Source of the DNA: Terriglobia bacterium
Lineage (GTDB): Bacteria > Acidobacteriota > Terriglobia > Terriglobales > Acidobacteriaceae
DNA length: 49,226 nucleotides
Direction: 5' to 3'
Assembly: GCA_020073015.1 (NCBI GenBank)
Contig: JAIQFZ010000017.1
Span: 1-49,226 of the forward strand
The notes under the pieces were generated by a model, which was not told where the DNA came from, made no database searches, and saw only the letters and a list, made by a program, of their open reading frames with translations. Positions 11,580 to 32,869 of this stretch are shown here, piece by piece. The translations under genes were made by a program, and so were the position numbers. Numbering within the stretch: position 1 is the stretch's first letter; every line of letters starts with the position of its first letter.

Positions 11580-11768
11580 AATTCCTCCCGAAATGACAGA
11601 CGATTATATGACGTGCGCTCGGCGACAGGTTCCCGAATCAACCGCAGGGCACAGGGAAGTGCCTGAGGAACCTCTTTGCACCACCCACATGGTCTTCCAC
11701 ATTTCTCGCTCTGCGAATAGGATATGTTGGTAAATTCACAGCTCATCTGTCGTTGACCGGGGGAACCC

Positions 11769-14455: not shown

Positions 14456-14461
14456 GGCAGA

Positions 14462-14510
14462 CTCTGGGCTTCTAGCTCCTAGCTTCTAGCTCTTGGCTCT
14501 TGGCCTTCGG
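14462..14510. repeat. Degenerate 7-bp tandem repeat (CTYYTRG), array 1
   Basis: Seven consecutive heptamers starting in the bases just after the iorB stop: ctctggg, cttctag, ctcctag, cttctag, ctcttgg, ctcttgg, ccttcgg. A second array of the same unit lies at 43634-43682. Confidence 0.8.
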
Positions 14511-14534
14511 AACAAGAATCGCTCGGGATGATCC

Positions 14535-15305
14535 ATGAAATTATTCTGCAAGCTCGCCGTGTGCCTGATTCTTCTCGCCTTGTGCGCGGCGGGGCAGGAG
14601 ATCACGGTTGCGGCGGCGGCGGACATGAACGTGGTTCTTCCGGAGCTGGCAGTGCGCTGCACGAAGCAGACCGGGCAAGTGGTTAAGCTGTCGTTTGGTT
14701 CGTCCGGCAATCTGACGAACCAGATCCGGAATGGCGCGCCATTTGATGTCTTCTTCTCCGCCGATGAGGAATATCCAAAGCAGCTGGTGGCGGACGGGTT
14801 GGCTGTAAGCGGCTCGCTTTACCGGTATGCAGTCGGGCGATTGGTGCTGTGGGTCCCGAATACGTCCACTCTCGACTTGCCGAAGCTGGGCATGACGGCT
14901 CTGCTTGATCCATCCGTGAAAAAGCTCGCGATTGCCAACCCGCAGCATGCACCCTATGGACGTGCTGCAGAAGCCACCCTCAAGCACTTCGGAATCTACG
15001 ATCAGGTGGCGGCGAGGCTCGTGCTCGGAGAAAATGTAGCGCAAGCTGCGCAGTTTGTGGAATCGGGCAATGCCCAGGCCGGATTGATTGCACTCTCGCA
15101 CGCGCTCGCGCCAGCGATGAAGAGCAAAGGCCGCTACTGGACCGTTCCGCTCGATTCGTACCCCACGCTGAACCAGGCGGCGGTCGTGCTCTCCCAGTCA
15201 AAGCACCAGGATGCGGCGCAAGAGTTTTTGAAATTCGTCCGCAGTTCCGAGAGCATTTCCCTGCTCAAGAGCTACGGCTTCAGCTTGCCCGCGGAGACAC
15301 GTTGA
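14535..15305 (+). CDS. modA: Molybdate ABC transporter, periplasmic binding protein ModA
   Basis: 256 residues. A signal peptide (about 1-20, LAVCLILLALCAAGQ) is followed by EITVAAAADMN and the oxyanion-binding SFGSSGNLTNQI and GAPFDVFFSADEEYP segments typical of ModA. It captures molybdate (or tungstate) in the periplasm for ModBC. It lies directly downstream of the molybdenum hydroxylase genes, separated only by a tandem-repeat stretch, and 1 base before modB. Confidence 0.93.
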   Translation: MKLFCKLAVCLILLALCAAGQEITVAAAADMNVVLPELAVRCTKQTGQVVKLSFGSSGNLTNQIRNGAPFDVFFSADEEYPKQLVADGLAVSGSLYRYAVGRLVLWVPNTSTLDLPKLGMTALLDPSVKKLAIANPQHAPYGRAAEATLKHFGIYDQVAARLVLGENVAQAAQFVESGNAQAGLIALSHALAPAMKSKGRYWTVPLDSYPTLNQAAVVLSQSKHQDAAQEFLKFVRSSESISLLKSYGFSLPAETR

Positions 15306-15306
15306 C

Positions 15307-15981
15307 ATGAACTGGGAGGCATTTTGGTTGACGGTCCGGCTGGCAGCGATCGTCTCCGTACTTTTGATCGCCATCGGGATCCCCATCGCTTACTGGATTG
15401 CTCATTCGCGCTGGCGCTGGAAATTTTTGGTAGAGGCGGTGGTTGCGTTGCCGATCGTGTTGCCTCCGACCGTGCTGGGCTTCTACGTTCTGCTGGCCCT
15501 GGGTTCCCGGAGTCCGCTGGGCCGCTGGTGGGAATCGCTGACGGGCCACACGCTGGCATTTACTTTTGAAGGGCTGGTGATTGGGTCTCTGATCTATAGC
15601 CTGCCGTTTGCGGTGCAGCCGTTCGCGGCTTCGTTCGGAGCGGTCGATCCGAAACTGCTGCGCGCCTCGGCCTCACTCGGGCAATCGCCAGCTCGAACCT
15701 TTTGGCGGGTGGTGCTTCCTCTCTCGAAGGCGGGGCTGGTCACTGGATTTGCCCTCAGCTTCGCTCATACGTTGGGCGAATTTGGCGTGGTGCTCATGGT
15801 GGGAGGCAACATACCGGGCGTGACCCGCACCATCTCGATTGACATTTACGATCAGGTACAAGCGGCGCAGTATGCCAGCGCGAATTGGACCGCGATCGTG
15901 CTCCTTCTGATTTCCTTTGCGGCGCTCTCGATCGTTTACGGAATCAACCGCCGGCCTTGGGCAGTGGGTCCATGGAAGTGA
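15307..15981 (+). CDS. modB: Molybdate ABC transporter permease ModB
   Basis: 224 residues with five to six membrane helices and the inner-membrane EAA loop (about 120-140, LRASASLGQSPARTFWRVVLP). ALPIVLPPTVLGFYVL and HTLGEFGVVLMVGGNIPG are characteristic of ModB. It partners ModA and ModC. Its 3' end overlaps modC by 10 bases. Confidence 0.93.
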   Translation: MNWEAFWLTVRLAAIVSVLLIAIGIPIAYWIAHSRWRWKFLVEAVVALPIVLPPTVLGFYVLLALGSRSPLGRWWESLTGHTLAFTFEGLVIGSLIYSLPFAVQPFAASFGAVDPKLLRASASLGQSPARTFWRVVLPLSKAGLVTGFALSFAHTLGEFGVVLMVGGNIPGVTRTISIDIYDQVQAAQYASANWTAIVLLLISFAALSIVYGINRRPWAVGPWK

Positions 15982-17123
15982 AAACCTCTCCCTCTAAGAA
16001 GTCCGCGGCGCCACCTCCCATCTCGTCGGAACTCGAAGTCCGCATTCGCAAGCGATTCCTGAATCCCGAGGGCAGCTTCATCCTAAATACTCACTTTCGC
16101 GCGCTGGCGGGGTTCACGATTCTGTTCGGCGCTTCGGGCGCAGGAAAAACCACTCTGCTGGATTGCATCGCCGGACTGAATGACCCCGACGACGGACGCG
16201 TCGCGGTCGGCGGCGAAGACCTCTACGACTCGGAGAAAAAGCGGAATGTTGCGGCCTGGAAGCGGCGGATCGGGTATGTGTTCCAGGAACTTGCGCTCTT
16301 CCCGCACCTGACTGCCGAGGAGAATGTGGCTTACGGACTACCGACGCTCACTCCGGCGGAACGACTGGCGCGCACCGGCCATATTCTGCAAACCTTTCGC
16401 ATCGAGCATGTGCGCGACCGGCGGCCGGCGCAGATCTCGGGAGGCGAACGCCAACGCGTGGCCCTCGCGCGGGCTTTGGTGACCGAGCCGCGCGCCTTGC
16501 TGCTGGATGAGCCGCTGGCCGCGCTGGACCGTCCGACCAAGTCGCACATTCTGGCCGATCTTCGGCAGTGGAACCAGAATCACCGGGTGCCGATCCTCTA
16601 CGTCACCCACAGCAGCGAAGAGGTTTTTGCTCTTGGCGATGAAGTCATCGTGCTGGATGCAGGAAGAATCGTGGCCCAGGGACGGCCGCATGAGGTCATG
16701 CGTGCTCCGCGGCTCGAAACCGTTGCGCAACTTTCCGGGTTCGAGAATATCTTCGACGCCGCCGTGGTTGCGCTCCATGAGGATCGCGGCACGATGACCT
16801 GCCGTCTGGGAACCGGCACGGTGGAACTGGAAACGCCGCTGGTTCGAGCGGAAGTTGGGTCACGGCTGCGCGTTGGCATTCGCGCCGGCGATCTGCTGCT
16901 GGCTACGCAGAGCCCCAAGGGACTCAGCGCGCGGAACGTTGTGGCAGGAACGATTCGGGGGCTGGAGCAGAGAGACGTCATTGTCTCCGCGTTCGTGGAT
17001 TGCGGCGGGACGGAATTCGAAGTGCACTTGACGCTGGCGGCACGCGAAGCGCTGAAGGCGGCTCCGGGCAAGAAAGTCTGGCTGGTCGTCAAGACGCATT
17101 CGTGTCATTTAATGAGCGGGTAA
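15972..17123 (+). CDS. modC: Molybdate ABC transporter ATPase ModC
   Basis: 383 residues. Walker A GASGAGKTT (53-61), Q-loop YVFQELALFPHLT, signature ISGGERQRVALARAL, Walker B ALLLDEPLAALD and a C-terminal molybdate-binding (MOP/TOBE) region after about residue 290. The ATG at 15972 was chosen; it sits inside the modB tail and gives a low-complexity leader of about 20 residues. It energises molybdate uptake; besides the adjacent hydroxylase, no other obvious active molybdoenzyme is in the window. Confidence 0.92.
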   Translation: MEVKTSPSKKSAAPPPISSELEVRIRKRFLNPEGSFILNTHFRALAGFTILFGASGAGKTTLLDCIAGLNDPDDGRVAVGGEDLYDSEKKRNVAAWKRRIGYVFQELALFPHLTAEENVAYGLPTLTPAERLARTGHILQTFRIEHVRDRRPAQISGGERQRVALARALVTEPRALLLDEPLAALDRPTKSHILADLRQWNQNHRVPILYVTHSSEEVFALGDEVIVLDAGRIVAQGRPHEVMRAPRLETVAQLSGFENIFDAAVVALHEDRGTMTCRLGTGTVELETPLVRAEVGSRLRVGIRAGDLLLATQSPKGLSARNVVAGTIRGLEQRDVIVSAFVDCGGTEFEVHLTLAAREALKAAPGKKVWLVVKTHSCHLMSG

Positions 17124-21666: not shown

Positions 21667-23709
21667 ATGCCCCACAAGCTCACCACATGCACGTTCTGCG
21701 GTGTGGGTTGCGGTCTCTACCTGGAGACTCAAGGCAACCAAGTAGTGGGCGTGTACCCGAGCGTTTCGCATCCGACCAATCAAGGCAGAATCTGCGTACG
21801 GGGCTGGCATGTCCACGAAATTGCCAGCTCACCGGATCGGCTGAAACACCCGCTCCTTAAGAAAGACGGACAGTTTCAGGAAGTTCCCTGGGACGAGGCG
21901 CTCGGCTTCATCGCTACCCGGCTCACGGAAATCCGCAATCAGCACGGTCCCGATTCTCTTGCCTTCCTGAATTCGCCGCGCTGTTCCAACGAAGAATCCT
22001 ACCTGCTGCAGAAGCTTGCCCGCGCCGTGATCGGCACCAACAACGTGCACCACGGGACCGGCGCTTACTCGAACAATTCGATCAGTGTTCTGCTCGACAT
22101 GATCGGCGTGCCGGCGAGCACAAATTCGATCGCGGAGTTGGCGCAGAGCGAAGTGATCATTGTCGACGGCGTGGATCTGGCACGCCGCCTGCCCACTATC
22201 GGAGGTGCGGTCATTCGAGCCAAGCTCAATGGTGCGCGACTGATCGTCGTGGGCACGCGCCGTCACCGCGTGGCCGAAAATGCGGACCTGTTTTTGCAGA
22301 TCAAGCCTGGGACCGAGACCCTGCTGTATGGCGCCATCGCCAAGGTCGTCGTAGATCGCGGTCTCGCGAAACTCCCCTTCATCAAGGCCCGCTGCCGGGA
22401 CTACAGCGCCTTTCTGGCGCAAGTGCTGGAATACGATCTGCTGCGCGTGGCGGACGCGTGCGGCGTATCACCGGACCTGATCGAAGCTGCCGCCCTGGCC
22501 TACGGGCAGGCTCGATCCGCGGCACTGCTGTTTTCGTCCAGCATGGAAGATCGCACTCGCGACAGCATCCGCGCGGTCGTCAACCTGGTTCTTCTCACGG
22601 GCAACCTGGGCAAGCCGGGCGCCGGCCTGTTCGCGCTCAGCGAACAAAACAATCTGCAGGGCGTGTGCGACTTGGGGATGATACCGGACCGGCTCCCGGG
22701 CTACCCGAAGGTGAGTGATCCCGCCGCCCGCGCCGCGATGGAGGCAATCTGGAAGACCAGGATTCCTGCCACCCCGGGGTTAGGATCTCGTCCGGTCTTG
22801 ACCAGTCGCGGGCAGGGCCAGATACGCGGAGTCTGGCTCTCCCGCTACGATCCGGTTAATACCGCCTTCCTCGGTAATGTCGGAGATGTCGCTGCTCAGC
22901 TTCGACAGCTTGACTTGCTGGTCGTGCAGCACCTCTTCATGAACGAGACTGCGCAGTACGCCCATGTCGTTTTGCCGACCACAGCCTTCGGCGAAGAGGA
23001 AGTTACGTTCACCAGTACCGACCGTAGAATTCAATTGGCAGAGCGAGTCGTCGATCCGCCTGCGGGCCTGACCTCGGCTTGGGAACAAATTGCGGATGTA
23101 GCCCAGCGCATGGGAGCCGATTGGAACTACCGATCAGCCGGCGAGGTGATGGAAGAAATCGGTGAGGTCGTGCCCTCCTACGGTGGCGCAAGCTATCAGA
23201 ATCTGGCGCGCGAGTATGGCCGGCAGTGGCCGTGCACGAAGGACCGCCCGCTGGGCACGCGCTTCCTGTTTGGAGACAACAACCACAACGGAGGAGAGAA
23301 ATTCAAGTTCGTCCCGATCCCGAAACCGCCGCAGCCTGCGCCAGCTTCTAAAGACTTTCCGCTGACGCTGGTCTTTGGAAACTCACTCTACTACTGGAAT
23401 CAGAATGTAGTCGTCCGCCACAGCGAGACCCTGAAACGCGAATATCGGATCCTGATGCTTGACTATCCGCAGGGCTTCGTCGAGCTCAACACCGACGACG
23501 CCAAGCAACTCGGCATTCGCGACGGCAAGAGGATCCGGCTGTGTGCAGCGAATTCCTCTTCGACTGCGACGGCGCGGGTTACCTCGGAGGTCATGAGTGG
23601 AACCATTTTCGTTCCACATTTCATGCGGGATGTTGAACGGCAGATTCTGGGAGCGACCGGCGACAGCCGCCGGCTGGTTCCGGTGCGCGTGGAGAAGGAG
23701 ATTGCATGA
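21667..23709 (+). CDS. FdhF/NuoG-like molybdopterin oxidoreductase homologue lacking formate dehydrogenase catalytic residues
   Basis: 680 residues. The N-terminal [4Fe-4S] site is intact (Cys8, 11, 15, 43), and the fold is plainly that of formate dehydrogenase H: QKLARAVIGTNNV, LTGNLGKPGAG, GMIPDRLPGYP. Aligned without gaps to E. coli FdhF from memory, selenocysteine 140 corresponds to Tyr134 (codon TAC), His141 to Ser135 and Arg333 to Ser325. So it should not oxidise formate by the known mechanism. It is the first gene of the hydrogenase operon and overlaps the next gene by 4 bases. It probably serves as an Fe-S electron-transfer or scaffold subunit, as NuoG does in complex I; whether it binds molybdenum is unknown. 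No clear ribosome site is seen before 21667. Confidence 0.82.
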   Translation: MPHKLTTCTFCGVGCGLYLETQGNQVVGVYPSVSHPTNQGRICVRGWHVHEIASSPDRLKHPLLKKDGQFQEVPWDEALGFIATRLTEIRNQHGPDSLAFLNSPRCSNEESYLLQKLARAVIGTNNVHHGTGAYSNNSISVLLDMIGVPASTNSIAELAQSEVIIVDGVDLARRLPTIGGAVIRAKLNGARLIVVGTRRHRVAENADLFLQIKPGTETLLYGAIAKVVVDRGLAKLPFIKARCRDYSAFLAQVLEYDLLRVADACGVSPDLIEAAALAYGQARSAALLFSSSMEDRTRDSIRAVVNLVLLTGNLGKPGAGLFALSEQNNLQGVCDLGMIPDRLPGYPKVSDPAARAAMEAIWKTRIPATPGLGSRPVLTSRGQGQIRGVWLSRYDPVNTAFLGNVGDVAAQLRQLDLLVVQHLFMNETAQYAHVVLPTTAFGEEEVTFTSTDRRIQLAERVVDPPAGLTSAWEQIADVAQRMGADWNYRSAGEVMEEIGEVVPSYGGASYQNLAREYGRQWPCTKDRPLGTRFLFGDNNHNGGEKFKFVPIPKPPQPAPASKDFPLTLVFGNSLYYWNQNVVVRHSETLKREYRILMLDYPQGFVELNTDDAKQLGIRDGKRIRLCAANSSSTATARVTSEVMSGTIFVPHFMRDVERQILGATGDSRRLVPVRVEKEIA

Positions 23710-24812
23710 GAGCTCGCGTACTGGACCGCGACGACGCGCTGAAGATCGTCGATCTGCTGCGCCGGCAGGGCTACGAGGTGATCGCGCCGTTCTATGGCCG
23801 CGGGCGCGACACACTTTTTGACACGGTCACAGACCAGAACCGGGATCGGGTCCAGATTCATCTGCCGAATCCGTACTACCCACCGAAGCGCTACGTTTTT
23901 CCGCACATCGAGCGTTTGCTGAAGGTCCAGCGCAGCAATGGCGACCTCCATATCGAGCCTACGTACGAGCAGCCTCTACGCGCCATCTTCGGAATTCGTT
24001 CGTGCGACATCGCGGGCATATTCCATCTCGACCGTTTCTATCTGGGCCGCGAGTTCCGCGACATTTATTACGACAATCGCCGCAAGAACCTGCTGCTGAT
24101 CAATGTCGTTTGCAGCGATCCCGAAGTGGATATCGGCGAGGAATGCTTCTGCATGTGCTCCGACACCGGCCCCGCCGCCCGCGGCCACTTCGACCTGCAA
24201 CTGATGGACCTCGGCGAAGAATTCCTGGCAGTTGCCGGAACGCCCGCCGGGGAAGCGATGTTCGCAGATCCCATTTTCAAGAAAGGCACGGAGGCGCATA
24301 TAGCCAGGCGTCGTGCAATTCTGGAAGACGTTCGCAAACGCTTCAAGCCCATTACGACCAGCTGGTTCTCAGCAGCCATCCAGGACGTTTCAAAGGGCGA
24401 GATCCTGGAAAAGACCTGGGAGGAAATCGGCAACCGCTGTCTGGAATGCGGCGGATGCACCTATGTCTGTCCGGCCTGCACCTGCTTCACGGTCACTGAT
24501 CGGCAGGTGGGGCCGAACGAAATCGAGCGGGTCCGCATCTGGGACTCCTGCGGCCTGGACGGTTTCACCCGCATGGCGGGAGGCTTCAACCCGCGGCGCG
24601 CCGTGCACGACCGCCGCAATCGCCGCTTCTTCCGGAAGCTGGCTCACTACTTCATTCAACGCGAACTCTCCATGGCGTGCGTCGGCTGCGGGCGATGCGC
24701 GGCGGTCTGTCATGGAGACATCGGAATGCCGAGCGTGGTGGAAATGGTCCGCCGCGCCACGGCCGAGGTGGGGAAGGCAGAGGCCGAAAAACATGAACTC
24801 GTCAGCCATTGA
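23706..24812 (+). CDS. Sulfhydrogenase beta-subunit-like Fe-S protein (two 4Fe-4S clusters)
   Basis: 368 residues. The N-terminal 220 residues follow the beta-subunit pattern of NAD(P)-linked sulfhydrogenases (IFGIRSCDIAGI near 95-105, then a Cys-rich EECFCMCSDTG). Two ferredoxin-type motifs follow: Cys245-248-251-255 and Cys325-328-331-335. In group 3b hydrogenases this subunit wires the flavin subunit to the hydrogenase core. Here it sits between a FdhF-like gene and the flavin subunit gene, overlapping both. It overlaps the next gene by 20 bases. Confidence 0.85.
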   Translation: MRARVLDRDDALKIVDLLRRQGYEVIAPFYGRGRDTLFDTVTDQNRDRVQIHLPNPYYPPKRYVFPHIERLLKVQRSNGDLHIEPTYEQPLRAIFGIRSCDIAGIFHLDRFYLGREFRDIYYDNRRKNLLLINVVCSDPEVDIGEECFCMCSDTGPAARGHFDLQLMDLGEEFLAVAGTPAGEAMFADPIFKKGTEAHIARRRAILEDVRKRFKPITTSWFSAAIQDVSKGEILEKTWEEIGNRCLECGGCTYVCPACTCFTVTDRQVGPNEIERVRIWDSCGLDGFTRMAGGFNPRRAVHDRRNRRFFRKLAHYFIQRELSMACVGCGRCAAVCHGDIGMPSVVEMVRRATAEVGKAEAEKHELVSH

Positions 24813-25677
24813 GAATGTGACCCGGCCCATCGTTCCCGAGCCGATCGAGAACGTGTATCTGCCCAAGGTCGCGGTGCTCGACCGCGTGGTTGATGAAATC
24901 CATGAGCTCAAGACCTTCTGCTGGCACTTCGAAGATCCAGCAGAGCAGCGCGCTTTCAAGCGCTTCCGCCCGGGCCAATTTGCCCAGGTTTCGCTGTTTG
25001 GCGTGGGCGAGTTTCCCACGTCCCTGCCGCCCAGTCCCACCGAGGACGAGACTTTCTTCACCGTTCGGCAGGTTGGAAGTTGCACATCGGCGCTCCACCA
25101 GCTCAAGGCGGGCGACAAGTTCGCGATACGCGGACCCTACGGCAACGGCTTCCCGATGGAAGAGTATTACGGCAAGAACCTGGTGTTCGTCGCGGGCGGC
25201 ATTGGGTTGATTCCGCTGCGCTCGGCCATTGTGTACGCGCTGGCGCATCGCGACAAATTCCAGCGCATCCAGATTTTTCACGGCGCAAAAACACCGAAGG
25301 AACTGATGTATGTGCCCAAGCTGCTCGAGTGGGAACGAACCCCCGGGGTCGATTGCCACATGACTGTGGACCGGGCTGGCGCCGACTGGACGGGCAACGT
25401 CGGCGTGGTCGGCAGCCTGTTCAAGAAGCCCGGCGTCGAGGTGCCGGTCGATAACACGATCGCCTTCGTCTGCGGGCCGCCGATCATGTTCCGCTTCGTC
25501 ATCAAAGATCTGCTCGGCATGGGCTTCCAGGAACGCAACATCGTCTCGACGCTCGAACGCTACATGAAATGTGGCGTGGGCAAATGCGGGCACTGCTGCA
25601 TCGGCGTGGCCTACGTATGCGTAGACGGTCCGGTCTTCACCTACGAGCAGATCAAGAAGTTGGGGGAGGACATTTGA
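24793..25677 (+). CDS. Sulfhydrogenase gamma-subunit-like FAD/NAD(P)-binding reductase
   Basis: 294 residues of the ferredoxin-NADP reductase family. FAD domain near residues 20-120 (RPGQFAQVSL, RGPYGNGFP), NAD(P)-binding domain from VFVAGGIGLIPLRSA (131-145) to FVCGPPIMF, and a C-terminal [2Fe-2S] loop with Cys260, 265, 268 and 276 as in HydG and PyrK. It should exchange electrons between NAD(P)H and the Fe-S chain. The ATG at 24793 lies within the end of the preceding gene; the stop overlaps the following ATG (TGATG). It is the key evidence that the complex is NAD(P)-linked rather than formate-linked. Confidence 0.88.
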   Translation: MNSSAIENVTRPIVPEPIENVYLPKVAVLDRVVDEIHELKTFCWHFEDPAEQRAFKRFRPGQFAQVSLFGVGEFPTSLPPSPTEDETFFTVRQVGSCTSALHQLKAGDKFAIRGPYGNGFPMEEYYGKNLVFVAGGIGLIPLRSAIVYALAHRDKFQRIQIFHGAKTPKELMYVPKLLEWERTPGVDCHMTVDRAGADWTGNVGVVGSLFKKPGVEVPVDNTIAFVCGPPIMFRFVIKDLLGMGFQERNIVSTLERYMKCGVGKCGHCCIGVAYVCVDGPVFTYEQIKKLGEDI

Positions 25678-26237
25678 TGAAAGACCTCCGCCAACAACTC
25701 GGAGAATTGCTCCAGGGCCGCGTCTGCCTGATGGGCTTGGGGAATGTGGACTGCGGCGACGATGGCTTTGGTATCCGCTTAGCGGAGGAACTGCGGGAAG
25801 CCGGCGTGCCGGATGTCATCATCGCGGGAACCACTCCCGAGCAGTATGTCGGCCGCATCGCGAATCAGGGATTCGACCGCCTCGTTTTCCTGGACGCAGT
25901 TGAGTTCGGCGCGCCGCCCGGATCGGTCGCGCTTCTGAATGCCCGCGAAATATGCGCCCGCTATCCGCAGATCTCCACCCACAAGATTTCCCTGGGCGTG
26001 CTGGCCAAATGGGTTCGAGCCAGCAGCAGAACCAAAGTGTGGCTGCTGGGCGTGCAGCCGCAGTCCATAAAACCCGGAGAGACAATCACACCCACCATAA
26101 GCGCAACGCGCGATCTTCTCCGGACGTTGCTTCTGGAACTGTCAGCCGGCAAGAACCGCGTAGGGACAGCCGCCCTCGGCTGTCCAGCCGAGCGAAGCTC
26201 GGCAGTCACACGAGAAGATGAGGCGGTCACGGCATGA
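25677..26237 (+). CDS. hycI: Hydrogenase maturation protease (HycI/HyaD family) with repeat-encoded tail
   Basis: 186 residues. Nickel-dependent endopeptidase that trims the C-terminus of the large subunit after metal insertion. Motifs: GLGNVDCGDDGFG (21-33, metal Asp), LDAVEFGAPPG and STHKISLGVLA with the conserved His. The family is usually about 150-160 residues; the extra C-terminal part (from about 161, RVGTAALGCPAE) is the translation of the double-hairpin repeat at 26159-26204. The trimming target, a 28-residue tail after the DPCFSCTDR motif, is present on the large subunit encoded two genes downstream. The stop overlaps the next ATG. Confidence 0.88.
   Translation: MKDLRQQLGELLQGRVCLMGLGNVDCGDDGFGIRLAEELREAGVPDVIIAGTTPEQYVGRIANQGFDRLVFLDAVEFGAPPGSVALLNAREICARYPQISTHKISLGVLAKWVRASSRTKVWLLGVQPQSIKPGETITPTISATRDLLRTLLLELSAGKNRVGTAALGCPAERSSAVTREDEAVTA
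26159..26204 (+). repeat. Double-hairpin repeat, copy 2 (3' end of hycI)
   Basis: GTAGGGAC leader, a 9-bp stem GGACAGCCG with loop CCCT, then a 7-bp stem GCCGAGC with loop GAA. It lies inside the 3' end of the protease gene and is read in the same frame as copy 1 in ubiD, giving VGTAALG in both. Confidence 0.88.
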
Positions 26238-28168
26238 TGACTCCGGAACAAGCCGTCGTCGTCGCCATCCTAAGTTGCGTTGCCGGTGCCCTGCTGACGC
26301 TGCTGGTTTCGCGCTACAAGACGGTCGCCGGATGGATTGCGTTTCTCGTCACTGCAGGGACCGCCGTCCTGATTTTCTCAGCCGCGCTGCGGGTGCTGAC
26401 CACCGGGCCGTCGCTTCATCCAGCTGCCTTTTGGGCTCTACCAAAGATTGGTTTCATCCTGCGCATCTATGTCGATGGCTTGACGGCCGTGTTCCTGCTG
26501 CTGGCCGCCGCGATTGCGGTGCCTGCCGCGTTCTACTCCATCGCTTACATGCGGCACTACCAGGACTATGGGGTCGGGCGTTACTACCCGTATTTCCTGC
26601 TCTTCCTCGCCGCCATGTACGGCTTGCTCTCGACCACCGACATGATGTGGTTCTTCTTCATCTTCTGGCAGCTCATGACCCTGCCCGGATATGCGCTGAT
26701 CCGCTTCGAATACCGCAAACGGCAAAACGTCAGGGCCGCCAACAAATATCTGCTGATGATGCAGATTGCCTGCGTCGCGACCATGGTGGGAGCCGAGATG
26801 CTGGCGGTGGCTGGCGCTGCTGCGCGCGGCAGTACGAGCCTGATGTATGACTTCGACACGGTCAGCGCGAACCTGCCGCTGCTGTTGCGGGATCAACCCA
26901 TCGCGGCTGCGTTCGCCTTTGCGCTGTTCCTGACCGGCTTCGGCATCAAGATGGGAATGTGGCCATTCGGCCAGGTGTGGTTGCCGGACGCGCACCCTGC
27001 CGCTCCTTCTCCCGTAAGCGCAATGCTTTCGGGCGTGATGATCAAAACCGGCGTCTATGGCCTGATGCGCTACTTCCTCTGGCTCGTGCCAATCAGCGCG
27101 CTTGCGGACTATCCGCTCGCCCGCTGGGGCATGCTGGTCGCGGTGCTGGGCACGATCACGTTGTTCACCGGCACCATGCAGGCACTGAAGCAGGAACAAT
27201 CCAAGCGCCTGCTCGCCTTCCACAGCATTGGACAGATCGGCTACATCCTGCTGGGCACCGGCACATGCATGGCCCTGCTGGCAGTGAACACTCCGGCCAC
27301 GGCGGCACTGGCCACGATCGCTTTCTTTGGAGCGCTGTTTCACGTTCTGAATCACGGCTTGTTTAAGGGACTGCTGTTCCTCAATGCCGGCTCCATGCTG
27401 CACTCGACCGGCACGCAGGACCTGAACAAAATGGGTGGGATGATGAGATACATGCCGCTGACGGCCGTGACCGCGCTCATCGCCTCGTTTTCGATCTCGG
27501 GCGTGCCGCTGTTCAACGGCTTCGTCAGCAAGTGGAGCATCTACGTGGCGGCCATCCAGGGCAGCGGGTCGGCTCACTACCTCGTGGTATGTGCGGTGAT
27601 CGCCATCCTGACCAGCGCTCTCACGCTGGCCTCGTTCATCAAGTTCTTCGGGGTAAGTTTCCTCTCGCGGACCAGCGCGCTGGTAAAGACACGAGCAGGC
27701 GCAACCAACGGCCACCTGGAAGTCCCGTGGATGATGCAACTCCCGCAGGTAGTGCTGGCATTCCTTTGCGTGCTGCTGGGCGTTGTGCCCGCCATCGGCT
27801 TCCGCCTCATGCAGCACGCGCTCGAAGCGAGCCGCGGCGGGCTAGGAACGACTCTTGCCAATGCCTCACCCATGATCAGCAATCCTCTTACCGGGCTCGC
27901 CCAAGCTCCTTCCGCGGCCGTGTTTGCGCCGGTCGCGCTGGCCGCGGTTTTAGGTCTCATGTTCCTGGCTGTGTACGGCATCTCGAAACTCGGGAGCGCG
28001 TCGCGTCGGGCCGCCGATCCCTGGCTGTGCGGCTACGTGCGCGAGGCGGACTGCCATCGCTATGTCGCCCACAACTTTTACGGGGAGATCAAGCGCTACT
28101 TCGGCTGGCTCGGCGGCGCGCCGCATCCACATCCGGAGAAAACGCCGGTCGTGAAGGAGCTCTCATGA
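26234..28168 (+). CDS. hyfB: Hydrogenase-4 subunit B / NuoM-NuoL-like membrane subunit
   Basis: 644 residues with about 14-16 membrane helices. Antiporter-type subunit of membrane hydrogenases and complex I, thought to move protons or sodium ions. The conserved segment FGQVWLPDAHPAAPSPVSAML with its helix-breaking Pro and the QEQSKRLLAFHSIGQIGYIL stretch (Lys and His in the proton path) are both present. The proximal Glu region (FWQLMTLPGYALI) is altered compared with NuoM. It is the only antiporter-like subunit in the operon. Overlaps the genes on both sides by a few bases. Confidence 0.9.
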   Translation: MMTPEQAVVVAILSCVAGALLTLLVSRYKTVAGWIAFLVTAGTAVLIFSAALRVLTTGPSLHPAAFWALPKIGFILRIYVDGLTAVFLLLAAAIAVPAAFYSIAYMRHYQDYGVGRYYPYFLLFLAAMYGLLSTTDMMWFFFIFWQLMTLPGYALIRFEYRKRQNVRAANKYLLMMQIACVATMVGAEMLAVAGAAARGSTSLMYDFDTVSANLPLLLRDQPIAAAFAFALFLTGFGIKMGMWPFGQVWLPDAHPAAPSPVSAMLSGVMIKTGVYGLMRYFLWLVPISALADYPLARWGMLVAVLGTITLFTGTMQALKQEQSKRLLAFHSIGQIGYILLGTGTCMALLAVNTPATAALATIAFFGALFHVLNHGLFKGLLFLNAGSMLHSTGTQDLNKMGGMMRYMPLTAVTALIASFSISGVPLFNGFVSKWSIYVAAIQGSGSAHYLVVCAVIAILTSALTLASFIKFFGVSFLSRTSALVKTRAGATNGHLEVPWMMQLPQVVLAFLCVLLGVVPAIGFRLMQHALEASRGGLGTTLANASPMISNPLTGLAQAPSAAVFAPVALAAVLGLMFLAVYGISKLGSASRRAADPWLCGYVREADCHRYVAHNFYGEIKRYFGWLGGAPHPHPEKTPVVKELS

Positions 28169-29841
28169 TCGCCCGCCAAATGTTCGAGGAGTTCAAGGCG
28201 CGATTCGGGCCCCTCATCCAACGGGCGGATCTGCCCAGCGATAGCCGCCTCTACGTGTTTGTGGATCGCTCTGCCGTGAAGTATGTCTGCCAGCATATCT
28301 TCCGGGAACTCGACGCCCGCTACGTGGCCAGCATCGGCAGCGACGACCGGCCCTTCTCCGGCACGTTTCTGGTCGCGCACAACTTCGCCTTCGACAAGGA
28401 TCACCTGCTCTGCAGCGTGCTCACGCAACTTCCACAAGACGATTTGAAAATCGACAGCATCACCGCGATGGTGCCCGCGGCCAGTTGGGCCGAGCGCGAG
28501 ATGCGCGACCTGCTCGGCATCGAACCGGTGGGGCACAGTTATCCCAAACGGCTCGTGTTGCCCGACGGCTGGCCGGAAGGCAAACATCCGCTGCGCAAGG
28601 ATGTGCCCTGGAACGAGGTGCCCGAGGGCTACGACGAGGAGCGCGAGTTCAAATTCGACGAGCCTCCTGAGGGCTGCATGGTGGTGCCGTTCGGCCCCTT
28701 CCATCCCACGCTCGACGAGCCCGCCCACTTCCGCCTGTACGTCGAAGGAGAGATGGTGCGCGGCTGCGAGTACCGCGGCTTCATGGTTCACCGCGGCATC
28801 GAAAAGCTGGCCGAATCGGTGATGAGCTACAACGACATCCCGATGCTGGCGGAACGCATCTGCGGCATCTGCGGTTGTGTCCACAACGTGGCGTATGTGC
28901 AGGCCGTCGAGGACGCCGCCGTGCTCAAGCCGCCGCCGCGCGCTGAGTACATTCGCACCATCATGCTGGAACTCGAGCGCCTGCACAGCCACCTGCTGTG
29001 GACCGGGCTGGCCTGTCACATTGTGGGGTTCGACACATTGTTCATGCAGAGCTTCCGCATCCGCGAACCCATCATGTGGATCGCCGAAAAAATCAGCGGG
29101 AACCGCAAGACCTATGCCCTCTGCGTCATCGGCGGAGTGCGCCGCGACATTACCGACGAACTCAAAACCGAACTGCGCGCCGTGCTCGACAAACTCGAGT
29201 CCGAATGGCGTGCCGTCGTGGGCGCCGTAAGCAATGACCGGAACATTCAGAAGCGCACGCGGGATGTAGGAGTAGCCGACAAACTTCTGGTCAAGAGCGC
29301 CGGACTGGTCGGCCCGGTAGCGCGCGCGGCTGGAGTCGACATCGATTGCCGCCGCGACCTTCCCTACGCTGCGTATGATCGCGTGGACTTCGACGTCATT
29401 ACGGCGCAAAGCGCCGATGTGTGGGCCCGCCTGGTGGTGCGCATGAAAGAAGTATTCGAGTCCATCAAGATCATGCGCCAGTGTCTCGACAAAATGGAAG
29501 ACGGCCCCCTGCAACTCGAAATCAAAGACGAGTTGCCGATCGGCCGCATGGGCCTGTCCTCGGTCGAAGCCCCGCGCGGCGAAGCCCATCACTTCGTCAT
29601 CACCGGAGAGAATAACCGTCCTCGCCGCTGGCGAGTGCGCGCGCCCACGTACCAGAACCTGCAGGGCGTGCCGGCCATGATCAAGGATCAGCAGATCGCC
29701 GACATGACGATTTCGTTGGGCAGCATTGACCCATGTTTTTCCTGCACCGACCGCCTGGAGACAATCGACCTGCGCTCCGGCGAGAAAAAAGTGTGGTCGC
29801 AACAGGAGCTGCTGCAAATGACGCGGAAGAAGGAGCCTTAA
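28165..29841 (+). CDS. hyfG: [NiFe]-hydrogenase large subunit, group 4 (HyfG/HycE type, NuoC-NuoD fusion)
   Basis: 558 residues. Residues about 1-150 form the NuoC-like domain (ERE-MRDLLGIEPVGH) and 175-558 the NuoD-like catalytic domain. All four nickel-binding cysteines are present: Cys233 and Cys236 (ERICGICGCVH) and Cys524 and Cys527 (DPCFSCTDR). So unlike NuoD it should hold the Ni-Fe site. A 28-residue extension follows Arg530, the tail cut by HycI-type proteases. AAGGAG precedes the ATG at 28165. The N-terminal motif has CGCVH where HycE has CSFCH-like variation. Catalyses H2 production or uptake on the cytoplasmic side of the membrane. Confidence 0.94.
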   Translation: MIARQMFEEFKARFGPLIQRADLPSDSRLYVFVDRSAVKYVCQHIFRELDARYVASIGSDDRPFSGTFLVAHNFAFDKDHLLCSVLTQLPQDDLKIDSITAMVPAASWAEREMRDLLGIEPVGHSYPKRLVLPDGWPEGKHPLRKDVPWNEVPEGYDEEREFKFDEPPEGCMVVPFGPFHPTLDEPAHFRLYVEGEMVRGCEYRGFMVHRGIEKLAESVMSYNDIPMLAERICGICGCVHNVAYVQAVEDAAVLKPPPRAEYIRTIMLELERLHSHLLWTGLACHIVGFDTLFMQSFRIREPIMWIAEKISGNRKTYALCVIGGVRRDITDELKTELRAVLDKLESEWRAVVGAVSNDRNIQKRTRDVGVADKLLVKSAGLVGPVARAAGVDIDCRRDLPYAAYDRVDFDVITAQSADVWARLVVRMKEVFESIKIMRQCLDKMEDGPLQLEIKDELPIGRMGLSSVEAPRGEAHHFVITGENNRPRRWRVRAPTYQNLQGVPAMIKDQQIADMTISLGSIDPCFSCTDRLETIDLRSGEKKVWSQQELLQMTRKKEP

Positions 29842-29884
29842 CGCTTGTCTCAGAGGTCTATGTCAGAAAAGTCTCTATCGATTG

Positions 29885-29910
29885 TCATCCCGAGCGAAGC
29901 GAGGGATCTG
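29885..29910. repeat. TCATCCCGAGCG repeat, single arm, within the hydrogenase operon
   Basis: Matches one arm of the inverted repeat at 17161-17229. It lies in the 104-base gap between hyfG and hyfC. In translation it gives the CHPERSEGS string, a known source of false N-terminal extensions. Confidence 0.8.
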
Positions 29911-29945
29911 CAGTTGGCGAGCGTAAGAACATTCGAAGGATGTCT

Positions 29946-30872
29946 ATGGACCGCAGCCTGATTTGGACGATCGTCGCTGGCGTGCTGAACATCGGCATCG
30001 TGCTGCTCGTCGCGCCACTCTGCCAGGGAGTACTGCGCAAGGTCACGGCCCGCGTGCAATCCCGCCAAGGTCCTCCGCTGCCGCAGCCGTACTTCGACCT
30101 GCTGAAACTCCTGGGCAAGGAAGACATTGAGTCCGGCCAAACACCTGCCATGCAGCGCTTCGCCGCCTATCTCTCGCTGGCTACGGTGCTGACGGTGGCG
30201 TGCCTCGTGCCCATGGGCTTTGCACCCCCGATGAATCATGCCGGAGACGTGATCCTGCTGATCTATCTTTTGACCCTGTGCGGCGTCTGCACACTGTTGG
30301 CCGGCCTCGCCGCCGGTTCCACCTACTCGCTGGTCGGGATCAGCCGCGAAATGATGAGCATGATCGCACTCGAGCCCCTGTTTGCCATCGCCCTCATCGT
30401 CGGCGCAGTCCACACCGGGTCGTTCCGGCTGGACACCGTGTTGCACGGCTCGGTTTACACCGCGGCCGGCGTTCCCTGGTCGGGATTGATCATGCTGGGC
30501 GTGATTCTGCTGTCGTTTCAGGCATTCGTTCAGCGCGTGCCCTTCGACATTTCCGAAGCGGAAACCGAACTCATGGAAGGCCCGCTCATGGAATACTCCG
30601 GCCCCAAGCTGGCGCTGTTCAAGTACGCGCAGATGGCCAAGCTGGTCATCTACAGCGCGCTCTTCGTATCGCTGTTCGCGCCCTGGGGCTCAGCGCTGGT
30701 TTTCCCGTTTGGCTGGCTGCTGTTCTGGGCCAAGGTTCTAGTGCTCGTGCTGTTAGTCACGCTGGTAGCGGCAACGCACGCGCGCTATCGCATTGATCAA
30801 GCGCTTCGGTTCTTTGCGAGCCTGTTCGCGGTAGCACTGGTGGCGCTGGTGCTGGCAAGCTATGGACACTGA
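29946..30872 (+). CDS. hyfC: Hydrogenase membrane anchor subunit (HyfC/HycD, NuoH-like)
   Basis: 308 residues with about eight membrane helices. NuoH-type subunit linking the peripheral arm to the antiporter-like subunit. Conserved features: VTARVQSRQGPPLPQPYFDLLKL-type loop, ISREMMSMIALEP and RVPFDISEAETEL with the acidic residues lining the quinone/proton region. Two in-frame starts, ATG 29940 and 29946; GAAGGA (29934-29939) favours 29946. The longer open frame upstream is repeat-derived and rejected. Confidence 0.92.
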   Translation: MDRSLIWTIVAGVLNIGIVLLVAPLCQGVLRKVTARVQSRQGPPLPQPYFDLLKLLGKEDIESGQTPAMQRFAAYLSLATVLTVACLVPMGFAPPMNHAGDVILLIYLLTLCGVCTLLAGLAAGSTYSLVGISREMMSMIALEPLFAIALIVGAVHTGSFRLDTVLHGSVYTAAGVPWSGLIMLGVILLSFQAFVQRVPFDISEAETELMEGPLMEYSGPKLALFKYAQMAKLVIYSALFVSLFAPWGSALVFPFGWLLFWAKVLVLVLLVTLVAATHARYRIDQALRFFASLFAVALVALVLASYGH

Positions 30873-30880
30873 CCGAAATT

Positions 30881-30927
30881 ACGTAGGGACAGCCGCCCTC
30901 GGCTGTCCGGCGGAGCAAAGCTCCGCA
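30881..30927 (+). repeat. Double-hairpin repeat, copy 3 (between hyfC and hyfH)
   Basis: GTAGGGAC leader, a 9-bp stem GGACAGCCG with loop CCCT, then a 7-bp stem GCGGAGC with loop AAA. It fills most of the 75-base gap in the hydrogenase operon, 20 bases before the next ATG, so it will be in the mRNA. Confidence 0.88.
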
Positions 30928-30947
30928 GCTTGGCACAAGGTGAGTGC

Positions 30948-31472
30948 ATGTCGCTCTTGAGCAAACTCGAAGAGACGCTGATCTGCCTGAAGGCCGGCCG
31001 CGTCACGCTCCCCTACCCCGCGCAGGCTCAGCCGCTGCCCGAGAAGTTCCGAGGCCGCCCGATTTTCGATGCCACCAAGTGCATCGGCTGCGCGGGCTGC
31101 GCGAACAACTGCCCCGCGCGCGAAATCCTCGTCTACGACGTTTGCCAGGAAGTCCGCGTCCTGCAATACCTCGGACGCCGCTGCACCTATTGCGGCCGCT
31201 GCGCCGACGTCTGCCCCGAGAAGGCCATCACCATGAGCCTGGAATTCGAGAACGCCACCAACCAGATCGGCGACCTCGGACAGAAATTGGAACTATTCAT
31301 GAGCACTTGCCAGCGCTGCGGACGCTGCTTCAAGGGCGCGGCCGCACTGGACGAGTTGAAGATGAAAGGCTATCGCTCCGACGATCTCGAGAGCGAGCGC
31401 TGGGTCTACCGCGCCCACGCATTTCTGGAAGGTGAACCGGCAGTCGCGGACATCGAGATCGAGTTGGATTGA
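30948..31472 (+). CDS. hyfH: Hydrogenase ferredoxin-like subunit (HyfH/HycF, NuoI-like)
   Basis: 174 residues. Two 4Fe-4S motifs: Cys45-48-51-55 (KCIGCAGCANNCP) and Cys79-82-85-89 (RCTYCGRCADVCP). An additional CQRCGRC (Cys121, 124, 127) lies in the C-terminal part, as in some HycF/HyfH relatives, and may hold a further cluster. It relays electrons between the small subunit and the diaphorase-like module. The ATG at 30948 has AAGGTGAG at good spacing. Overlaps no gene but ends 2 bases before the next start. Confidence 0.92.
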   Translation: MSLLSKLEETLICLKAGRVTLPYPAQAQPLPEKFRGRPIFDATKCIGCAGCANNCPAREILVYDVCQEVRVLQYLGRRCTYCGRCADVCPEKAITMSLEFENATNQIGDLGQKLELFMSTCQRCGRCFKGAAALDELKMKGYRSDDLESERWVYRAHAFLEGEPAVADIEIELD

Positions 31473-31474
31473 AT

Positions 31475-32011
31475 ATGTTGAAGAATCTTTGCCAAAAAAT
31501 GTTCGGCCGGTCGCTGTGGGTCTATCACGCCAACAGTGGAGGCTGCAACGGCTGCGATATCGAAGTGCTCAACGTCCTCACCCCGTATTACGATGTCGAG
31601 CGCTTCGGCATCAAACTGGTCGGCTCGCCGCGACACGCGGACGTCATGCTCTGCCAGGGCCCGGCCATGCGCTCCACCGCGCTCGCCCTCAAGCGTGCGT
31701 ATGAAGCCATGCCGGCTCCAAAACTCGTTTTTGCGATCGGCTCCTGTGCCTGCGGCGGCGGCATCTGGTTCGATAGTTACTCCGTGCTGGGTCCCGTCGA
31801 AAAGATCCTTCCGGTGAGTTACTACATTCCCGGCTGTCCGCCGCGCCCGGAGGCCATTATTTACGGCGTCGCGGTTGCGCTCGGACTGGTCGACAAAAAG
31901 ACCGCACCTGTCACCTTCAAGCAATCGGAGTTTCCGATTCCGCAGTATCACCCCGGCGATCTGCGGGGCGACGGCGGCATGGTCGTCTACGAGAAACTCG
32001 AGAAGATCTGA
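31475..32011 (+). CDS. hyfI: [NiFe]-hydrogenase small subunit (HyfI/HycG, NuoB-like)
   Basis: 178 residues holding the proximal 4Fe-4S cluster. Ligands: Cys24 and/or Cys27 (SGGCNGCDIE), Cys91 (GSCACGGG) and Cys121 (PGCPPRPE), the pattern of group 4 small subunits. ATG 31475 preferred over an overlapping TTG at 31469. It is the last gene of the operon. Confidence 0.93.
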   Translation: MLKNLCQKMFGRSLWVYHANSGGCNGCDIEVLNVLTPYYDVERFGIKLVGSPRHADVMLCQGPAMRSTALALKRAYEAMPAPKLVFAIGSCACGGGIWFDSYSVLGPVEKILPVSYYIPGCPPRPEAIIYGVAVALGLVDKKTAPVTFKQSEFPIPQYHPGDLRGDGGMVVYEKLEKI

Positions 32012-32170: not shown

Positions 32171-32656
32171 ATGAAAACGCACAAGCAAAAAGGTTTCTCA
32201 CTTATCGAACTGTTGATCGTGGTAGCGATCATCCTGATCATCGCGGCAATTGCCATCCCCAACTTGCTGCGCGCCCGTATCTCAGCCAATGAAGCGTCCG
32301 CAGTCGCATCGCTGCGCACGCTGAACACCGCTCAGATTTCCTACAACTCCACCTACCCGACGGTGGGTTACGCCGCCACGCTGGCCGCTCTGGCTGGGAC
32401 GAATTGCGCTCCCCCGACGTCCGCGGGCGCTTGCCTGATTGACACGCAGCTGGCCTCCGGCGTCAAGAGCGGTTATTCGTTTGTGATCTCGGGCACGGGC
32501 AGCACCACGCCGGTTTCCTCCTATCAGTTCAGAGCCGATCCTCTGGCTCCGAACCAGACGGGCGTGCGCTTCTTCTGCTCGTTCGCCGACGGCGTGATTC
32601 GCGCGGGAACGGCCTCGCTGACAACCTGCGACGGCAGCGCCACACCGCTCCAGTAA
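32171..32656 (+). CDS. pilA: Type IV major pilin (PilA-like prepilin)
   Basis: 161 residues. Class III signal: eight-residue leader ending KQKG, cleavage before FSLIELLIVVAIILIIAA with Glu at mature position 5. The 20-residue-plus hydrophobic helix is followed by RARISANEASAVASLRTLN and a disulfide-type C-terminal loop (Cys pairs near 78, 86, 138 and 151). Such pilins form the fibre body; acidobacterial pilins of this form are often called PilA or GspG-like. It is far from the assembly genes at 1-5073. A TACACT box at 32116-32121 may be the -10 region. Confidence 0.9.
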   Translation: MKTHKQKGFSLIELLIVVAIILIIAAIAIPNLLRARISANEASAVASLRTLNTAQISYNSTYPTVGYAATLAALAGTNCAPPTSAGACLIDTQLASGVKSGYSFVISGTGSTTPVSSYQFRADPLAPNQTGVRFFCSFADGVIRAGTASLTTCDGSATPLQ

Positions 32657-32783
32657 GCGACGCAATCCCCAACTCGATGCGGCGCGGTCGCGATTCCATG
32701 CCTCGTTAGTCACTCCTCAAGAACCATCGGAGATCGCTTGGTTCAGGCGCGAGAAGCTATACTAAGGGCGGCCAGAAATTCAG

Positions 32784-32869
32784 GCCGGGATGGCGGAATT
32801 GGCAGACGCGCTGGTCTTAGGAGCCAGTGCCCAAAAGGCGTGCAGGTTCAAGTCCTGTTCCCGGCACCA
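32784..32869 (+). tRNA. tRNA-Leu, anticodon TAG
   Basis: 86 bases. Acceptor stem GCCGGGA pairs with TCCCGGC, followed by discriminator A and encoded CCA (32867-32869). Anticodon stem CTGGT/GCCAG with loop CTTAGGA puts anticodon TAG at 32818-32820, reading CUA. A long variable arm (about 32829-32842) and the TPsiC stem-loop CAGG-TTCAAGT-CCTG are present, as expected for a class II leucine tRNA. The methyltransferase gene ends 8 bases further on the opposite strand. Confidence 0.95.

Follow-up and report, generated by a model that had tools for sequence, protein, structure and literature searches.

The 49,226-nucleotide stretch of Terriglobia bacterium DNA analyzed here (contig JAIQFZ010000017.1) carries nine consecutive open frames on the forward strand, between positions 21667 and 32011, that encode in order FdhF-like, beta, gamma, HycI, HyfB, HyfG, HyfC, HyfH and HyfI proteins (Table 1). 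Throughout, the window is this whole stretch and its own genome is the genome to which it belongs. Five of the eight gene junctions overlap, by 1–20 bases, and hyfH and hyfI are spaced by 2 bases; the two larger gaps, hyfG-hyfC (98 bases) and hyfC-hyfH (75 bases), both contain repeats. The original prediction of a nine-gene operon joining homologues of HyfB, HyfC, HyfG, HyfH, HyfI and HycI to beta and gamma subunits and a FdhF-like protein agrees with the gene positions, with the Pfam and NCBIfam profile searches by which we assigned the nine proteins to families, and with matches in the PDB. The operon most likely encodes an NAD(P)H-linked variant of the group 4 [NiFe] hydrogenases that is widespread and that we have not found described as such, the open-licence papers searched containing no description of this composition that we could find.

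Table 1. Genes and functional motifs of the nine-gene operon (positions in the window).
Feature	Position	Strand	Support
FdhF-like molybdopterin-oxidoreductase-fold subunit, 680 aa, predicted non-catalytic electron relay/hub	21667..23709	+	PF04879, PF00384, PF01568
[4Fe-4S] cluster motif of FdhF-like subunit: Cys8, Cys11, Cys15, Cys43	21688..21795	+	kept in 49, 49, 49, 48 of 49 rows
Lost active site of FdhF-like subunit: Tyr134-Ser135 at formate dehydrogenase selenocysteine/Cys140-His141 (E. coli FdhF numbers)	22066..22071	+	alignment columns
Ser325 of FdhF-like subunit at formate dehydrogenase Arg333 position	22639..22641	+	Arg in 1/49 cassette rows
Beta subunit, sulfhydrogenase type, 368 aa, [4Fe-4S] dicluster (Fer4_22)	23706..24812	+	PF17179; 9nez_B
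Gamma subunit, 294 aa, FAD/NAD(P)-binding and [2Fe-2S] motif	24793..25677	+	PF00175, PF10418; 9nez_C
HycI-type maturation protease for large-subunit C-terminal extension	25677..26237	+	PF01750; TIGR00072 above cut-off
HyfB/HycC antiporter-like membrane subunit	26234..28168	+	PF00361, PF00662; best NCBIfam PRK06521 (hydrogenase 4 subunit B), below cut-off
HyfG/HycE large subunit, fused NuoC-like N-terminal domain	28165..29841	+	PF00329, PF00346, PF00374
L1 motif of HyfG, Ni-Fe ligands Cys233 and Cys236	28861..28872	+	invariant in 13/13 aligned
L2 motif of HyfG, Ni-Fe ligands Cys524 and Cys527, then C-terminal extension (likely HycI substrate)	29734..29745	+	invariant in 13/13 aligned
HyfC/HycD (NuoH-like) membrane subunit; start 29940 or 29946	29940..30872	+	PF00146
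HyfH/HycF ferredoxin-like subunit, two [4Fe-4S] motifs	30948..31472	+	Fer4 families
HyfI/HycG small subunit, proximal [4Fe-4S] cluster	31475..32011	+	PF01058

The core of the operon belongs to a group 4 [NiFe] hydrogenase, with L1 and L2 CxxC ligands in HyfG and a complex-I-like membrane arm (PF00146, PF00361). The best PDB match of HyfG was E. coli HycE (7z0s, E 5e-121; 38% identity over 557 residues), with further matches to membrane-bound hydrogenase (MBH) and NuoCD, and the group 3 large-subunit profile NF040828 (ShyA) reached only 28 bits. All four Ni-Fe ligands (C233, C236, C524 and C527) are invariant among the 13 aligned relatives, and the protein continues past the L2 motif in a C-terminal extension, with HycI encoded in the same operon. 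The iron-sulfur ligands of the core are likewise conserved: the eight motif cysteines of HyfH are present in 52 of 52 aligned rows and the cluster cysteines of HyfI in 50, 50, 50 and 49 of 50.

At E-values up to 0.001, the sole PDB match of the beta subunit was the beta subunit of Pyrococcus furiosus sulfhydrogenase 1 (9nez_B, E 1.7e-34), and the best match of gamma was the gamma subunit of that enzyme (9nez_C, E 3.5e-56). Because beta scored below the curated cut-offs of the NCBIfam equivalog families NF040829 and NF040833 and gamma below that of NF006220, we read the two as homologues of the sulfhydrogenase subunits and not as the same subunits. Their cofactor ligands are conserved, with 15 of the 16 beta cysteines invariant in 52 of 52 rows (the sixteenth in 49) and the four [2Fe-2S] cysteines of gamma in all 53; the gamma flavin subunit is of the ordinary type resembling dihydroorotate dehydrogenase B (DHODB). 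One Chloroflexota record (bin905; L096:7408-9463) has beta and gamma adjoining the core and no FdhF-like match; a run of unknown residues interrupts its beta gene, and the record may be incomplete.

The FdhF-like subunit has retained the fold of a formate dehydrogenase (FDH) while the active-site residues disappeared. TIGR01591 was its best NCBIfam family (554.8 bits, under the cut-off of 666), its best PDB match was FdhF of the hydrogen-dependent CO2 reductase (HDCR; 7qv7), and an AlphaFold model (pLDDT 85.3, pTM 0.90) adopts the FDH fold, with a TMq of 0.86 to E. coli FDH-H (1aa6). We aligned 49 rows from cassette loci, defined as loci in which beta and gamma adjoin the core (48 distinct, the pair L048/L091 being duplicates), with five controls, namely E. 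coli FdhF and four FdhF-type proteins of loci without beta and gamma; a fragment (L069), a frameshifted gene in two pieces (L094) and the duplicates L071, L080 and L123 were excluded from the counts. The four [4Fe-4S] cysteines are retained in 49, 49, 49 and 48 of the 49 rows. Cysteine or selenocysteine (Sec) is absent from the Sec140 column in 48, the remaining row (L084) having a Cys followed by Tyr, and the Cys/Sec-His pair at columns 140–141 was found in none. His141 occurs in 14 rows, Arg333 in one and Lys44 in five; the roles of these residues come from work on E. coli FDH-H, in which Arg333 is catalytic. The residue in the Sec column itself varies (Gly in 25 rows, Tyr in 14, Trp in 3, Val in 2, and others). 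All five controls have Sec or Cys there (three in-frame TGA codons, two Cys) and four of five have each of His and Arg; the control that lacks both, L098, may be no FDH. With its catalytic residues gone, the subunit is very probably not an FDH, and a relay or scaffold is the better interpretation. In a quick tree the cassette proteins did not form one clade: 33 of 43, the window's included, fell into one starred clade, and the divergent remainder lay outside it on long branches with weak support. It is unlikely that Sec disappeared because the machinery to insert it is lacking, as the own genome encodes on contig C162 (L159) an FDH-like protein of 1,072 residues with an in-frame TGA at the Sec position.

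The linker that connects FdhF to the hydrogenase in E. coli is missing. We queried 56 cassette loci (52 distinct) and 48 other loci by tblastn with HycB, two HyfA proteins, a Chloroflexi HycB-type protein and HydN. No HycB-type linker was found in any of the 56 cassette loci, nor in the entire window, in line with the original prediction that the operon has none, and HydN likewise had no match in the 56. A HycB-type ferredoxin was present in 22 of the 48 other loci, three of them E. coli or Azospirillum references, whose formate hydrogenlyase loci have HycB/HyfA-type linkers and no annotated beta or gamma genes. Across the loci examined, cassette and HycB-type linker are mutually exclusive. 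HycH was likewise found in none of the 56 cassette loci versus 6 of the 48 others, and NuoE/NuoF-like genes in none of the 56. FdhD and FocA proved uninformative as markers, since they are missing near nearly all relatives without beta and gamma too: in both sets, FdhD was found only in the Azospirillum reference and FocA only there and in a Thermococcus locus (L101).

The cassette is widespread and no local oddity. Among 396 sampled Acidobacteriota genomes, with up to three candidates scored in each so that counts are lower bounds, at least 18 besides the own genome encode a large subunit at 49–70% identity; in the same sample, the 43 listed genomes of the window's own family yielded no related large subunit. 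FdhF-like, beta and gamma genes adjoin the core in 16 of the 20 Acidobacteriota neighbourhoods fetched. The nine-gene order, sought in other Acidobacteriota, recurs in 10 of these, with each gene once in window order, and L052 has the same order with two further HyfB-like genes; L039, L040, L045 and L046 had no HycI match at the threshold used, and the L057 contig ends after hyfG. The other four neighbourhoods (L053–L056) are short contigs, L056 having HycH and looking classical. A scan of named contigs for the large subunit, of which we followed the best 80 of 582 confirmed relatives, gave 40 loci with beta and gamma adjoining the core, four records being common to the Acidobacteriota set. 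The nine-gene order is found in 23 of these 40 when adjacent HyfB matches are counted once (L060 has two full ones), an extra HyfB-like gene stands between hyfH and hyfI in 7, three are cut after hyfG, two have hyfC and hyfG swapped and five are otherwise variant. By record labels they represent about ten phyla: Acidobacteria, Aminicenantes, Verrucomicrobia, Planctomycetes, Spirochaetes, Gemmatimonadetes, Armatimonadetes, KSB1, Chloroflexi (L096) and Proteobacteria, the last with Rhodocyclaceae, Thiodictyon, Lamprocystis purpurea and Chitinibacter tainanensis. Of the 40 loci without beta and gamma, many on short contigs, 36 also lack a FdhF-like match. Among plasmid records we found no cassette in the 15 rows listed of 249 matches to HyfG (best 43% identical) and 41 to beta (best 32%). 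Recurrence in distant phyla rules out a chance or local rearrangement, and the nine open frames, the conserved cluster and Ni-Fe ligands and the existence of a relative at 91% identity rule out a decaying operon.

Phylogeny of the large subunit sets the cassette apart from known formate hydrogenlyases. From a first tree of 110 rows we removed 30 by hand: wrong-strand rows (L002, L003 and L029), a short one (L180), long or doubtful rows, near-duplicates, and L054, L082, L090, L099 and L102, which lie in the cassette clade on cut-off contigs without visible beta or gamma. The presence of beta and gamma changes seven times on the 110-row tree, where those five cut-contig rows are scored as lacking them, and twice on the 80-row tree. 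In the latter, 46 cassette large subunits and three from Chloroflexi form one clade (bootstrap 100, SH-like approximate likelihood ratio test 97) separate from HycE, HyfG and archaeal enzymes. The window's HyfG thus lies outside the E. coli HycE/HyfG clade, and the outcome that would have spoken against the original prediction, a large subunit falling among formate hydrogenlyases with the same accessory subunits, was not observed. Within the cassette clade it groups with two metagenome-assembled genomes of bog and fen Acidobacteriaceae (88–91% identical), then with Verrucomicrobia and relatives (78–82%); this Verrucomicrobia-side grouping, together with the absence of the gene from the 43 listed genomes of its family, suggests a possible lateral transfer.

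Carrier genomes were informative in one case. In C. tainanensis DSM 15459 the sole PF00374 match is the cassette HyfG, and only two proteins match PF00384, the FdhF-like one and a second, which we take for NuoG in view of a NuoD-like match at a distance of 3 kb. The PF00384 search therefore detected no molybdo-FDH in this genome besides the FdhF-like protein, and, provided that our searches are complete, no such enzyme can supply its hydrogenase with electrons. HypD was found in all nine carrier genomes searched, the own genome and eight others (in C. tainanensis on the same contig, about 9 kb off), and none of the nine has a TIGR01591 match above the cut-off.

To assess the membrane arm we compared 55 HyfB rows, four of them from loci without visible beta and gamma, to E. 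coli HycC. Lysine replaces HycC Leu208 in 54 of 55 rows, Gln285 in 45 and Glu391 in 54; E. coli HyfB has Lys at the 208 and 285 positions and not at 391. In the account of E. coli formate hydrogenlyase in PMC9474812, Lys is the residue at 391 in other group 4 enzymes, and 208 and 285 are positions at which HycC departs from antiporter-like subunits. These lysines favor ion coupling. In HyfC, equivalents of Glu130, Glu138 and Glu199 are present in 46 of 46 rows, Arg108 is replaced by Gly or another residue and Glu189 mostly by Phe.

Together our results suggest that the operon encodes a reversible NAD(P)H:H2 oxidoreductase of the membrane, whose core is a group 4 [NiFe] hydrogenase and in which a dead FDH acts as electron-relay hub, a reading that we hold to be probable; annotation as an ordinary formate hydrogenlyase is probably wrong. 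The gene content, the conserved cluster ligands, the lost FDH site, the missing HycB, the separate clade and the fold are observed; how the complex would assemble, the order of its electron path, its use of NADH or NADPH, the direction of the reaction and its coupling to ions are inferred. Electrons from NAD(P)H would enter at the gamma FAD and pass by way of the gamma [2Fe-2S] cluster to the beta [4Fe-4S] clusters, then through or past the cluster of the FdhF-like subunit to the two HyfH clusters, the proximal HyfI cluster and the Ni-Fe site of HyfG, where protons would be reduced to H2 or the reverse would occur. The FdhF-like subunit, a former FDH that would have lost catalysis and kept its [4Fe-4S] cluster, could serve as docking hub and relay for beta and gamma, standing in for both FdhF and HycB of E. 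coli formate hydrogenlyase. In this it would parallel NuoG, which kept a dead molybdoenzyme domain in complex I, as an independent analogue. HyfC and HyfB would form the membrane arm, with catalysis probably coupled to H+ or Na+ movement, and the ion gradient could drive H2 formation from NADH at high H2 or be charged at low H2. We computed from standard potentials that at pH 7 and an NAD+/NADH ratio of 10 the free energy of H2 formation from NADH runs from −4.7 to +1.0 kJ/mol over 10–100 microbar H2 (+1.0 at 100). As the reaction is near equilibrium, ion-gradient coupling would matter.

Several observations weigh against this proposal. The beta and gamma families also serve sulfhydrogenases and AsrAB, and so do not by themselves fix the partner enzyme. 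PF00374 has additional matches in seven of the eight carrier genomes searched, so that only C. tainanensis isolates the enzyme. Unusual FDHs can also escape the TIGR01591 cut-off: long molybdo-proteins with an in-frame TGA are encoded in the own genome (there at the Sec position), in Lamprocystis and in bog_205. In nine cassette FdhF-like rows a Cys stands no more than five columns from the Sec column, among them four of Verrucomicrobia type with the Cys one column beyond it, and these nine may possess a shifted Cys ligand; the window has no such Cys. The three Chloroflexi nested in the cassette clade (L087, L089 and L119) have a HycB-type ferredoxin, from which we conclude that module exchange was not one clean event and involved at least two changes, either a gain and a reversal or two gains. 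Two of them, L087 and L119, carry a Sec-containing FdhF instead of beta and gamma, which makes the trio a natural module swap.

The remaining contrary point concerns ion coupling. PMC9474812 calls the glutamate of transmembrane helix 5 (TMH5; HycC E135) strictly conserved, yet 39 of the 55 HyfB rows, the window's included, have Gln there, which argues against ordinary pumping; in the same account, E. coli formate hydrogenlyase shows no clear proton path on the P side. Both are what one would expect if the complex were NAD(P)H-linked and its membrane arm an anchor only. This is a sub-case of the favored reading, with which its probability overlaps, and we regard it as fairly unlikely given the three HyfB lysines, the invariant HyfC glutamates and the report that an E135A change in HycC caused no significant fall in H2 production (PMC9474812). 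We consider coupling to ion movement likely. The 16 rows that keep the TMH5 Glu comprise the four without visible beta and gamma and 12 cassettes, 11 of which have more than one HyfB match; the residue is Gln in compact cassettes and Glu mostly where further HyfB-like genes exist. The original prediction of a membrane complex that couples NAD(P)H and H2 to ion movement accordingly stands for the conserved composite of core and NAD(P)H module; its ion part is probable, some HyfB positions resembling those of pumping enzymes but the TMH5 Glu being Gln in the window.

Other explanations retain a formate or alternative substrate site. Were the operon that of a group 4a enzyme, an ordinary formate hydrogenlyase to which electron-transfer subunits had been added, its FdhF-like protein would oxidize formate; the FDH fold and the TIGR01591 assignment point that way, as does the annotation of a 'fdhF, hyf operon' in a peatland acidobacterium, Ca. 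Sulfotelmatobacter kueseliae SbA1, as formate hydrogenlyase by Hausmann et al. (PMC6018796). We reject this as highly improbable on the loss of the active site (column 140, the pair at 140–141 and Arg333) and on the missing HycB, to which the separate clade of the large subunit and the lack of another molybdo-FDH candidate in C. tainanensis can be added. Operons of this kind may already be in print as ordinary formate hydrogenlyases, with that of SbA1 as a candidate. That the window belongs to the SbA1 genome itself is not supported, since the own genome yielded no DsrA match and SbA1 carries DsrAB (PMC6018796). A pterin cofactor might instead still be bound and a non-formate reaction catalyzed, giving the complex three sites, for NAD(P)H, H2 and a further substrate. 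Molybdenum cofactor enzymes without a protein Cys or Sec ligand exist, the entire molybdoenzyme fold is retained, columns such as G221 (46 of 49) and R204 (40 of 49) remain conserved, and in some rows a Cys lies close to where the ligand was lost. Yet columns fixed or nearly fixed in the controls vary in the cassettes, with Q301 in 3 of 49 rows, D478 in 5, H585 in 1, K679 in 2 and K44 in 5 (Arg in 44), and the Sec-column residue differs between rows, unlike a conserved new site; we judge a third site quite unlikely. Finally, beta and gamma could act with ferredoxin in a bifurcating reaction with H2, or reduce polysulfide. Their nearest relatives are sulfhydrogenase and AsrAB subunits, and NADH by itself donates electrons to H2 formation only weakly when H2 pressures are ordinary, but the single flavin subunit is of the ordinary DHODB-like type, the 56 cassette loci lack NuoE/NuoF-like genes, and Pfam and NCBIfam recognized no ferredoxin-specific subunit among the nine proteins, so that a sulfur-linked or bifurcating enzyme seems very unlikely.

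The favored NAD(P)H:H2 oxidoreductase combines features of several known systems. E. coli formate hydrogenlyase-1 (FHL-1; HycBCDEFG-FdhF, 7z0s/7z0t, group 4a) shares the core, HyfB, HyfC, HyfG, HyfH and HyfI matching HycC, HycD, HycE, HycF and HycG at 31–44% identity, and also has HycI and a FdhF-type protein. Its single antiporter-like subunit (HycC) makes the core Hyc-like, so that the one such subunit counted in the original prediction is correct as a count and is not the unusual feature it was taken for. Unlike FHL-1, the cassette lacks HycB and HycH, has beta and gamma, lacks Sec-His-Arg in its FdhF-like protein and has a large subunit outside the HycE/HyfG clade. With P. furiosus sulfhydrogenase 1 (group 3b, 9nez) it shares beta and gamma; that enzyme is soluble and has neither a membrane arm nor a FdhF-like protein, and its large and small subunits are of group 3 type, which the cassette large subunit is not. 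The related Thermococcus formate-hydrogenlyase-type locus (L101) has a related large subunit with FdhF close by, but its FdhF has Cys-His and it carries a HycB-type ferredoxin and no beta or gamma.

Complex I (NuoA-N) is a further counterpart, with a common core, NAD(P)H input and a non-catalytic molybdoenzyme-fold subunit, NuoG, between the NADH module and the core. The cassette differs in keeping the Ni-Fe ligands, in using a different NAD(P)H module and in lacking NuoE and NuoF, and its FdhF-like protein, unlike NuoG, has no N-terminal ferredoxin domain by Pfam and scores 554.8 bits as FDH-alpha against 118.6 as NuoG. According to the discussion in PMC9474812, FdhF and the complex I subunit NDUFS1/NuoG are homologous and probably joined the superfamily independently, with cluster N7 of NDUFS1 an apparent relic in many species; by analogy, the cassette would add one more instance of an FDH-type subunit joining a complex-I-type superfamily independently. 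We consider it possible, if short of probable, that the cassette is an independently assembled complex-I counterpart of many phyla that ends in H2 and not quinone, with an FDH turned into a NuoG-like hub for another NAD(P)H module, coupled to the ion gradient, making H2 straight from NADH and liable to annotation as formate hydrogenlyase. The FDH-Ehr complexes proposed for Margulisbacteria and Saganbacteria (PMC6349859) likewise combine an FDH-type subunit and an NAD(P)H module with a membrane arm like that of complex I; by that description, Ehr has no Ni-Fe ligands, the genes for the NAD(P)H module resemble nuoE/nuoF, and FdhA is regarded as the catalytic subunit. Elsewhere, an Fpo-like hydrogenase related to group 4g is described without an NADH module (PMC7886697), and the HydDB table lists 4f as 'formate-coupled (putative)' and 4g as 'ferredoxin-coupled (putative)' (PMC5037454).

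If our reading is true, a group 4 hydrogenase would be coupled directly to NAD(P)H, and fermenting or syntrophic bacteria could shed NADH electrons as H2 with the help of an ion gradient. It would provide another independent FDH-turned-relay in a complex-I-type machine, with a bearing on the origin of NuoG, and would change what 'fdhF + hyf' annotations are taken to say about the formate and H2 metabolism of peatland Acidobacteria, Aminicenantes, Verrucomicrobia and others. The cultured carriers C. tainanensis and L. purpurea make it testable.

Repeats and neighboring genes complete the description of the locus. A 26-base element occurs twice within the operon, at the 3′ end of hycI (26160–26185) and in the hyfC-hyfH gap (30883–30908), and has 63 copies in the own genome at up to two mismatches, with none for a reversed control; the repeat in the hyfG-hyfC gap (29861–29907) is different. 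In the close relative L058, the hyfG, hyfC and hyfH matches are spaced by only 8–13 bases. Some kilobases upstream of the operon (11753–17120) lie genes for a protein with a molybdenum-cofactor-binding domain and then a molybdate importer-like set (solute-binding protein, permease and ATPase with TOBE). Directly downstream (32171–32869) the operon is followed by a gene for a protein with an N-terminal methylation motif (32171–32656) and a tRNA-Leu gene (32784–32869).

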